Notes under the pieces: generated by a model | Database searches by the model: none | Seen by the model: only the letters and a program-made list of their open reading frames with translations | Told to the model about the DNA's origin: nothing | Translations under genes and position numbers: made by a program | Virus record (IMG/VR): IMGVR_UViG_3300007539_000039 | Location: 1-45,912 of that record | Origin: a virus | Length of the DNA: 45,912 bases | Strand: one strand, 5' to 3' | Part shown: piece after piece, positions 4,434-32,233 of the stretch | Numbering within the stretch: position 1 is the first letter of the stretch | Layout of the letters: every line of letters starts with the position of its first letter

Positions 4434-4440
4434 AGTCTAA
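4434..4440 (-). promoter_or_regulatory. late-type element TTAGACT
   Basis: Reads TTAGACT on the minus strand, 32 nt before the ATG at 4401, in the short gap after the endolysin gene. Confidence 0.5.
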
Positions 4441-4446
4441 CGGCGC

Positions 4447-5613
4447 TCAGTAATCCCAGATGGCGGCAGGACGGACGCCAGCTCGGGGATGGAACTTACC
4501 GCCGTTGCGCGTGTCGACATGAATGAAACCCTTGTCGCGCCCGTCCCCATAGCCGCCGCTCCAGCGCTGAACGAGCCACTGGTGGAACTTGCTGATTGAT
4601 TCACCGATCGGGTAAATGTCCAGTGCCATCCCCCGGACGTGGTAGCTGTTACGCGCGCCACCAACCTGCGTATTGATCGGCTCCGGACGATAGCCACTCG
4701 TCACGCCGAGAGGACCGCTCCAGGCCTGACGAATCGCATCAAACTGCTTGCAGACCTCAATCAGCGCTTTTTCTTCTGGACTACCAGGACGAGGTTTGCG
4801 GCGTGCATCATATTGCAGCACTTCGCCCACCGTGATGTACTTGCCCACGGGTGCACTGAAATCATCCCAGTGAATGGCGGCCGGCGGGGAAATCGCTGGC
4901 GTGGCGCCCTCTTCGAGCCAGTGGGGGAGGAAGATTGCCCAGACACCAGCACCGCCGTTCAATGTGACCCAGGCGTGACTACTGGCTGGAATCTCATCGA
5001 CCTTGGTGACAGCGAGCAGCTCACCCTTCTTGATCGGCTTCTTGCCGGCGTCCGAGAGGTAATGGCTGTCAATGGCTGCCTTCTTGAGCAGTGTGTCCTG
5101 CTGAGCGATGAATTTCATGATGCCGTCGTCCTCTTGCATCCAAATGGCCCCTTCCCGCGTACGCCGCTTCACGAGGCCCAGCAAGGTCTTGCCGCCTGCC
5201 TTGACGTACAAACTCAAAGCCTGAGGCATCTGCTGGTAAACCTCAGGCCGGAGCGCCCCGTCCCGCAGTACCCTGGTGATCGTTTCGAATCCCACGGCAC
5301 CGAAGAAATCAGCGCCGAGGTTCCACGCAAAGCTCAACAGGACAGCTTGCCGCTTGTGGCCCAGGCGAGACCACCCCGGGATGACCTCAAGCGCAGGGAT
5401 GAACTCCTTACGCAGTAAGCCCTCCAGGTGTCCCCGACAGACGCGAAGGTCGCAGACGTCACCCATCCGTACCGGTTCGCCGTTGGGGTAACGGGTCAAA
5501 CCAGCGCAGATTGTTGGGATGCCGACAGGATCGAGGTAAGCCTCGGGCTCAATGCCCTCGAACTCCTCAATCAACGCTGTCGCCAGCGAGAATGTCTGAG
5601 GATGGGTCACCAT
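4447..5613 (-). CDS. endolysin: GH24 lysozyme + M15 peptidase
   Basis: 388 residues. Residues 12-165 are a T4-type lysozyme (GH24): E19, D28 and T34 keep the E-x8-D-x5-T catalytic spacing of T4 lysozyme. The middle (about 175-235) looks like a beta, possibly SH3-type, linker domain. From about 255 to the end is a peptidase M15 domain with SYHVRGMALDIY (His and Asp ligands) and FIHVDTR (second His). The protein should therefore cut both glycan strands and peptide bridges of peptidoglycan, for lysis or entry. There is no signal peptide, so release would need a holin. It overlaps the upstream gene by 47 nt. Confidence 0.9.
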   Translation of the reverse strand: MVTHPQTFSLATALIEEFEGIEPEAYLDPVGIPTICAGLTRYPNGEPVRMGDVCDLRVCRGHLEGLLRKEFIPALEVIPGWSRLGHKRQAVLLSFAWNLGADFFGAVGFETITRVLRDGALRPEVYQQMPQALSLYVKAGGKTLLGLVKRRTREGAIWMQEDDGIMKFIAQQDTLLKKAAIDSHYLSDAGKKPIKKGELLAVTKVDEIPASSHAWVTLNGGAGVWAIFLPHWLEEGATPAISPPAAIHWDDFSAPVGKYITVGEVLQYDARRKPRPGSPEEKALIEVCKQFDAIRQAWSGPLGVTSGYRPEPINTQVGGARNSYHVRGMALDIYPIGESISKFHQWLVQRWSGGYGDGRDKGFIHVDTRNGGKFHPRAGVRPAAIWDY

Positions 5614-30412: not shown

Positions 30413-30751
30413 ATGAACCAAGACATCAAACAGCGCTGGGTGGACGCCCTGCGCTCCGGCGAGTACAAGCAAGGCAAAGAATGCCTGCACGACTCCAGCG
30501 ACAACACCTTCTGCTGCCTTGGCGTGCTCACTGATCTCTACATCAAGGAGCACGGCCAGCAATGGCACAAGCCCGATGGCTCCACCCATCTCACCTTCGA
30601 GGATCAGGGAGGCGTACTACCTTTCAGTATCCGGACGTGGGCAGGCCTCGTCTCTTGCAGCCCCTACGTCAGCGGCCTCGATCTTGCCTCACATAACGAC
30701 AATGGCATGTCCTTCGACGAACTTGCCCAACTCATTGAAGACGAACTCTGA
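30413..30751 (+). CDS. conserved phage protein (FCCLGVL family)
   Basis: 112 residues. WVDALRSGEYKQGKECLHD...NTFCCLGVLTDLY...GGVLPFSIRTWAGL...LASHNDNGMSFDELAQLIEDEL matches point by point a family common in phage early regions; function unknown. Ends in TGATG with the next gene. Confidence 0.78.
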   Translation: MNQDIKQRWVDALRSGEYKQGKECLHDSSDNTFCCLGVLTDLYIKEHGQQWHKPDGSTHLTFEDQGGVLPFSIRTWAGLVSCSPYVSGLDLASHNDNGMSFDELAQLIEDEL

Positions 30752-30990
30752 TGAACCTCGCCGAGATCTCCGCTGCTGTCGACGCCGGTGACATCGTTCA
30801 CTGGCAGTCGCCCGAGTACACCGTCCACAAAGGGCCCGCGCACCCCGACACCCCGGGTAGCAACATCAACCCCGCCCTCAAGTACACCATCGATCACGTC
30901 AATGGCCAATCCATTGGCCTCACCTGGCGCGATGGCGTCACGCTGAACGGCAAAGAAGCGGACTTCTACCGCCCCTGCCCTCACAGTTAG
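30751..30990 (+). CDS. conserved small phage protein
   Basis: 79 residues. AAVDAGDIVHWQSPEYTVHK...LKYTIDHVNGQSIGLTWRDGVTLNGKEADFYR matches a short beta family seen beside FCCLGVL genes in other phages. Last plus-strand gene before the convergent Dps gene; the two stops overlap by 4 nt. Confidence 0.7.
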   Translation: MNLAEISAAVDAGDIVHWQSPEYTVHKGPAHPDTPGSNINPALKYTIDHVNGQSIGLTWRDGVTLNGKEADFYRPCPHS

Positions 30991-31514
30991 CCGCGCAGCA
31001 GGGCCTTCAGCATCCAGCTCACCTTGAAGGCGTCGCCCGTCAGATCCGCCATGTGGTTCTGCACGTCCGGCGCCTCCACCTCAGCCGCAACACGCTCGAT
31101 CTCCTTAGCGAGATACCCCATCGACTCGATGTTCACGTAGTACGCCATCAGCATCGAGCGCGTGTCGTAGCTGGTCACGTTCTGGAACGACGGCACCTGC
31201 TCCTTCAGGCCGCAGGCGCACATCGGCATGAAGTGATCCAGGCTCCGGACCAGTTCCGCCACGGTGTCGAACTGCTCGAGATGCTTCTCGTACCGCTTCT
31301 TCAAGAAGCGATGCAGCTCCAGAAAGTTCGGACCCTCCGCGTTCAAATGGATGAGATGAGCCTGCGTCTCCAGCTCCTTGAGCACGGCGGCCAACATCAC
31401 CAGATAGCGCACCAGCCGGGACACGCCGTCGCCGCACACTTCACTCTGGGATTGCGGCATGTCATCCGTGTCAGGGATCACTGGCATTAGCCCGCTTTGC
31501 ATCGCCTGACACAT
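30987..31514 (-). CDS. dps: Dps-like miniferritin
   Basis: 175 residues. Dps dodecamers bind DNA, oxidise Fe(II) with hydrogen peroxide and store iron. After a ~30-residue extension comes the four-helix body. H56 (in HLN), H68 (LELH), D83 (QFD) and E87 (AEL) reproduce the spacing of the E. coli Dps ferroxidase ligands (12, 15, 4). GPNFLELHRFL and the C-terminal KVSWMLKALL are also family marks. A Cys pair (MCACG) is unusual. It is the only minus-strand gene in this stretch and has a late-type element inside an inverted repeat, so it may be made late and against the early transcripts. Alternative starts: ATG at codons 5 and 10. Confidence 0.85.
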   Translation of the reverse strand: MCQAMQSGLMPVIPDTDDMPQSQSEVCGDGVSRLVRYLVMLAAVLKELETQAHLIHLNAEGPNFLELHRFLKKRYEKHLEQFDTVAELVRSLDHFMPMCACGLKEQVPSFQNVTSYDTRSMLMAYYVNIESMGYLAKEIERVAAEVEAPDVQNHMADLTGDAFKVSWMLKALLRG

Positions 31515-31523
31515 CTATCACTC

Positions 31524-31556
31524 TGACCACCAGTCTAATTGTGTCCTCGGTGGTCA
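31524..31556. promoter_or_regulatory. inverted repeat around late-type element
   Basis: TGACCACC (31524-31531) and GGTGGTCA (31549-31556) are a perfect 8-bp pair, 17 nt apart. The minus-strand element TTAGACT (31532-31538) abuts the first arm, 17 nt before the dps-like start. Looks like an operator overlapping the promoter. Confidence 0.5.
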
Positions 31557-31593
31557 AGCCCCTGCTCCGTTCACTCGGGGTGGGGGCTTTTTA
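31557..31593 (+). terminator. intrinsic terminator T9
   Basis: AGCCCC pairs with GGGGCT, with a CTCGGGGTGGGGGCTTTTT 3' half like T1. It has no plus-strand gene directly upstream, so it may catch readthrough or act as a cassette relic. Confidence 0.65.
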
Positions 31594-31594
31594 C

Positions 31595-31636
31595 GTGCAC
31601 ATTTTCATCGGTGCATTTGCGTTTCCTGTCGCTCTT
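31595..31636 (+). repeat. divergent leader, copy I
   Basis: CGTGCACATTTTCATC then GGTGCATTTGCG before the ATG at 31637. The GTGCATTTGCG part matches other copies; the upstream half instead resembles copy J. Confidence 0.5.
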
Positions 31637-32233
31637 ATGGCCGCCCTCGTTCCAACTGATGATGCTTTTCGACTCACACACCTTGACGACGATTTCGACC
31701 CCATTGCCCCACTGCCACCAAGGCCCAAGTTCAGGCGCTACGGGATCAACCAGCTCGGCCAGCTCTACGAGTACGGCGACACGCCAGCCACACCCAAGCG
31801 CATCCTCGACTCCAGCAGCGGTCTGCCGTTCCAGGGCATCCTCGACCTGGCGCTGAGGGAACGGGCCGGGGAGCGCCGCAAGCTCTACCTCGATACCACG
31901 CTCGCCACACGGCACCCCTACGTCATTGCCATCCTCGCGCTGCCGTGCTTCAACAGCAGCCCCGATCGCTGCTCCTGGCCCATCCGCTCATTACTCGGGG
32001 CGCTGACCGAGGCTTACAAAACCCTTGACCTGCACACCATGGCTGGCACAATTAGCTCACGGCGCGGCACCAAGCCCAATTCCCAGGGCTTTGTCGCCAA
32101 CTTTGTTGACCTCTGGATCGAAGGCGACCCCTTGCCCCTCCTGGCCCCTGCAATCGACCCCGATCGCCACAGCCTGGAGACCACCGTCAACCGCCTGCGT
32201 CGTGGCATGCAATTCGAACACCAGCCCCAGTGA
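31637..32233 (+). CDS. early protein of unknown function
   Basis: 198 residues. Acidic N-terminus, a Pro-rich stretch (IAPLPPRPKFRRYGINQLGQLYEYG), and a mostly helical remainder. No motif recognised. GTGA overlap with the next gene. Confidence 0.6.
   Translation: MAALVPTDDAFRLTHLDDDFDPIAPLPPRPKFRRYGINQLGQLYEYGDTPATPKRILDSSSGLPFQGILDLALRERAGERRKLYLDTTLATRHPYVIAILALPCFNSSPDRCSWPIRSLLGALTEAYKTLDLHTMAGTISSRRGTKPNSQGFVANFVDLWIEGDPLPLLAPAIDPDRHSLETTVNRLRRGMQFEHQPQ

Follow-up and report, generated by a model that had tools for sequence, protein, structure and literature searches.

The ferroxidase site of Dps mini-ferritins lies between subunits, with two histidines supplied by one subunit and an aspartate and a glutamate by the other. 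In E. coli Dps these ligands are H51, H63, D78, and E82; D67, four residues after H63, is often counted as a fifth residue of the site. A lysine-rich flexible tail is a trait of DNA-binding Dps proteins of the E. coli type. The PDB entry for Agrobacterium tumefaciens Dps (1o9r), in contrast, is titled as DNA protection without binding. Dps is already annotated in phages generally, and the family considered here is represented by a DNA-binding ferritin-like protein annotated in Synechococcus phage S-EIV1 (KJ410740, AHV82153). In the open literature, we found no study of the S-EIV1-like Dps gene and no paper tying a Dps gene carried by a phage to any class of expression. To the existing annotations we add near-universal retention of the gene in its lineage, an altered surround of the ferroxidase site, two types of tail, a promoter class, an antisense layout, and a conserved inverted position.

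The window is the whole stretch of DNA that was analyzed, 45,912 nt of IMG/VR record IMGVR_UViG_3300007539_000039 (positions 1 to 45,912), in which gene starts were called by hand. A sequence-only reading had assigned its minus-strand ORF at 30987–31514 to Dps. This ORF runs for 175 codons from ATG to TAA, and its GC content by codon position (0.62/0.34/0.85) is the strongest coding signature of the neighborhood. A 145-aa plus-strand ORF over the same gene (31053–31490) was dismissed as a shadow ORF of the Dps reading frame. Values of dN/dS were 0.24–0.29 against the three nearest relatives, which shows purifying selection on the gene. The protein matches Pfam PF00210 (Ferritin; E = 3e-9, 37.3 bits versus a curated cut-off of 24.5) and phrog_3636 (E = 7e-23), and its top sequence matches in the PDB are Dps and NAP proteins. 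Together with the structural model described below, these matches bear out the assignment: the ORF encodes a genuine Dps.

An AlphaFold monomer model, built with 51 family sequences, had a mean pLDDT of 86.5, with most of the core at 90 or above. Residues 28–174 were predicted well and form helices at 28–58, 64–91, 118–145, and 149–174, preceded by a disordered, acidic N-terminal tail (residues 1–27). The model is thus a four-helix ferritin-like bundle without a fifth C-terminal helix, the fold on which the Dps assignment had been staked; in the long BC loop, where Dps proteins have a short helix, only residues 104–106 are helical in the model. Solved Dps proteins ranked top in Foldseek and in a second aligner (Z 20–23 over ~145–157 residues), including MrgA (Z = 22.8), Thermosynechococcus Dps (TeDps, 22.3), TpF1 (22.2), and Nostoc Dps4 (21.7), and Listeria Dps was also among the structural matches. 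E. coli Dps shares the four-helix fold at ~15% identity in a structural match. Agrobacterium Dps and other cellular Dps proteins without a tail share the predicted Dps cage at ~17–18% identity.

The terminases of the window and S-EIV1 are 51% identical, and the S-EIV1 Dps is 43% identical to the window protein over 98%; S-EIV1 was the sole record in the phage collection matching the window Dps. By sequence the virus is assigned as S-EIV1-like, and because of the relatedness of both proteins to those of S-EIV1 its host is probably a picocyanobacterium. Relatives of the window Dps are encoded in at least 181 IMG/VR stretches. Among 38 records with a related TerL, all six of at least 80 kb carry Dps (G005, G007, G010, G017, G019, and G035), and of two records of ~66 kb one has the gene and the other lacks it; Dps is nearly universal in the S-EIV1-like lineage. 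Outside it, Dps was found in records of Streptomyces, Lactobacillus, and Campylobacter phages and in a small number of further phage records. Three different queries gave 125, 145, and 45 Dps matches in 50,697 phage records, and some of the bacterial-like matches lay in short unannotated records. The view that Dps is uncommon in phages therefore stands for isolates, at no more than ~0.3% of records per query, but not for this lineage.

As had been noted from the sequence, the Dps gene is inverted against its surroundings, a run of plus-strand genes. SSB, exonuclease, and Gp157/Gam-like genes are among them, and the plus-strand side is consistent with early or replication functions. At its 3′ end, Dps overlaps by 4 nt a conserved convergent gene of 79 aa (30751–30990, plus strand), and beyond its 5′ end lies a conserved divergent neighbor (31637–32233, plus strand); neither neighbor has an assigned function. 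In every window-type relative examined, Dps sits between the same neighbors and is always transcribed against them (L015–L019, L064, L065, L082, and L089, and less completely L095 and L096). The S-EIV1 Dps is likewise opposite in strand to its neighbors, but on one side, and its neighborhood is different. There, a gene annotated as sulfate adenylyltransferase directly follows Dps (L013, 20534–22000). As a conserved partner of Dps this enzyme was rejected, being present at 3 of 84 Dps loci and absent from the window. Elsewhere in the window, a two-domain endolysin with phage lysozyme and peptidase M15 domains is encoded at 4447–5613 on the minus strand.

An intrinsic terminator, a GC hairpin followed by a T-run, is located at 31556–31592 on the plus strand, opposite to Dps and just past its 5′ end. 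No other plus-strand terminator was found between 29500 and 33000, and most relatives have comparable hairpins at this position. Because the sole plus-strand terminator lies beyond the 5′ end of Dps and the convergent gene runs 4 nt into its 3′ end, early plus-strand transcripts may traverse Dps as antisense RNA, and the terminator would then stop them; silencing of Dps by this read-through is something that we infer from the layout.

A promoter-like box of the −10 type, TAGACT, is present at 31532–31537 on the minus strand, 17 nt ahead of the Dps start codon (ATG). The recurrence of TAGANT was first noticed upstream of minus-strand structural genes in the window (examples on that strand at 4434, 5904, 10556, 12303, 13545, 16051, 19395, 25206, and, for Dps, 31532). 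The motif is rarer in the window than expected, with 17 copies versus 27.6 from shuffles, yet it lies within 60 nt upstream of 9/18 minus-strand starts, Dps included, versus 1/46 plus-strand starts; these counts come from the same sequences in which the motif was spotted, and an 82-kb relative provides the independent check. When 18 starts were placed at random 100,000 times, the count peaked at six and never reached nine. The 82-kb relative has a Dps 70% identical to that of the window, and across the 36 kb examined TAGANT preceded 8/17 minus-strand genes versus 0/15 plus-strand genes, occurring at homologous genes and at Dps. The 16.2-kb Dps-side piece held just two copies, one preceding Dps and the other a second minus-strand gene. 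In one piece of the more distant relative G007, the box was clear at the terminase gene only; among 80 relatives, 52 have it before that gene. The terminase box lies only ~12 nt before the ATG, and the mRNA would be nearly leaderless. The box of the S-EIV1 Dps is TAAAAT, which is not late-specific, and in the AT-rich S-EIV1 genome boxes related to TAGANT are not restricted to late genes. Since Dps has the TAGANT box of the structural genes, late expression, which the sequence-only reading had proposed, gains independent support that is repeated in the 82-kb relative.

The plus-strand modules carry a different element, CAGCAGTGCA, often just after a terminator. In the form CAKCRGTGCA it has eight copies in the window, all on the plus strand (20336, 20861, 21109, 21514, 22791, 25236, 26943, and 31606), versus 0.9 expected. 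The last of these belongs to an inverted repeat, TGCAC..GTGCA, at 31596–31615 (plus strand), which heads the plus-strand gene next to Dps. CA(G/T)C(A/G)GTGCA often lies between an intrinsic terminator and a plus-strand gene, and it probably serves this virus group as an early promoter or operator.

We favor, at a probability of roughly 0.6, a Dps-type scavenger of iron and peroxide that acts late and without tail-mediated DNA binding. Early plus-strand transcription through Dps may silence the gene until the late program, when the mini-ferritin would be made. It is predicted to form a hollow dodecamer whose intersubunit sites would use H2O2 to oxidize Fe(II). Storage of the iron would suppress Fenton damage as the infected photosynthetic cell fails, at a time coinciding with replication and packaging of phage DNA, and because the window protein has no basic tail it would act mainly in solution rather than as a coat on DNA. 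Almost all members of a large group of uncultured viruses from aquatic habitats have a mini-ferritin gene, and it shares the promoter box of the particle genes, which suggests that late phage development in photosynthetic hosts includes control of iron and oxidants. The gene is also relevant to whether bioavailable iron is present in phage particles or lysates. A more ambitious proposal, which we regard as speculative and hold only tentatively, is that this Dps forms a lineage specific to viruses, its ferroxidase surround redesigned (Trp to Leu, Asp to Lys, and a fixed Cys), and that S-EIV1-like cyanophages have it as a near-core late gene, silenced early by antisense transcription and required for survival of DNA in the light, with the protein possibly carried in the virion.

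The late-type box shared with structural genes would also be expected of a virion protein, and Dps could be a head component that protects packaged DNA inside the particle or is delivered with it. A link between heads and Dps is hinted at elsewhere, in that several "prohead protease" proteins of other uncultured phages contain a Dps-like fold, but these database matches are only 17–24% identical and are known by name and fold match. The gene is also placed among the putative early genes, apart from the structural cluster, and we consider a virion role unlikely. The entries in question (BFVD A0A6J7WPK9, A0A6J7XDU5, and A0A6J7WIS1, each named as a prohead protease) may represent a head-linked Dps.

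Binding and compaction of host or phage DNA in the manner of E. coli Dps is plausible for one branch of the family. The S-EIV1 Dps differs from that of the window in its basic KPRSPAKSK tail; relatives on the S-EIV1 side, which form one clade on the tree and are the only members with a basic tail, have tails that end in a lysine-rich KPKxPxKSK-type sequence and carry a net charge of +1 to +3. The window protein, in contrast, lacks the lysine-rich tail: residues 1–30 contain no Lys or Arg and five acidic residues (net charge −5), and the whole protein has a pI of 5.2 and a net charge of −8. Tails of its near relatives are also free of lysine, with net charges of −1 to −5 across the group, except in L002, where the start is uncertain. 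The window Dps is therefore not expected to bind DNA through its tail, and the earlier suggestion of host DNA compaction is weakened as far as it relies on the usual basic tail. The close structural match to Agrobacterium Dps, with its title of protection without binding, argues in the same direction, and compaction is in our view an improbable role here. This natural split between basic and acidic tails makes the DNA-binding and iron-oxidizing roles separable for testing.

The ferroxidase ligands had been described as intact. By alignment, H56, H68, D83, and E87 correspond to the four E. coli ligands with the same 12/15/4 spacing, and the GPNF and WML motifs are present, all as first read. 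Loss of these ligands in related phages would have counted against the assignment; they are invariant in 67/67 distinct viral family sequences, the window included. The wider site is altered. The position of E. coli D67 is K72, so that 4/5 classical positions match, and across the family H68+4 is Lys in 61/67 sequences and Gly or Arg in the rest. The residue after the first His, W52 in E. coli, is L57 in the window and Leu, Val, or Phe in 67/67, whereas it is Trp in 11/11 cellular and 5/5 other phage Dps proteins compared. C99, a further difference from E. coli Dps, is invariant in 67/67. Trp after the first His and an acidic H+4 residue are conserved, although not strictly defining, Dps traits, and both are absent here. 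The S-EIV1 Dps has the same four ligands and Leu after the first His, while the Dps proteins of Streptomyces (Stanwilliamsviridae), Lactobacillus, and S-SRM01 phages keep both the ligands and the Trp. Because of the changes from Trp to Leu and from an acidic residue to Lys, the chemistry of S-EIV1-like Dps may differ from that of E. coli Dps. A cage whose ferroxidase is slow or absent, and which serves another metal or as a scaffold, could account for these family-wide substitutions and the invariant Cys, but fixation of all four direct ligands would be unexpected if metal chemistry had been lost, and cellular Dps proteins are themselves variable at H+4 (D, E, M, and Q). Such a change of function therefore seems rather remote, and the late scavenger is retained as the preferred reading.

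The tree included 11 cellular Dps, 5 other phage Dps, and 19 viral family members, with one cyanobacterial sequence. A branch with 99/99 support sets the viral family apart from the other Dps proteins, and the stem is very long. The window and S-EIV1 proteins share this clade and its signature of L/V/F after the first His with invariant C99, and the Stanwilliamsviridae, Lactobacillus, and S-SRM01 proteins lie outside it, mixed with cellular Dps. The deep branching order is unsure owing to long branches and the single cyanobacterium. A non-essential gene newly captured from the cyanobacterial host is very unlikely, even though the Dps of the cyanomyovirus S-SRM01 is closer to a cyanobacterial one, because the only cyanobacterial sequence in the tree, from Synechococcus PCC 7502, lies outside the viral clade at only ~23% identity to the window Dps, and the gene is retained almost throughout the lineage; recent host origin was rejected on these grounds. 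Two contigs binned in a "Euryarchaeota" MAG, L095 (PAZU01000034.1) and L096 (PAZU01000030.1), were treated as mis-binned S-EIV1-like viral contigs: both have Dps and neighboring genes in common with the phage loci, and the Dps of L096 resembles that of the TerL-bearing viral record G038.
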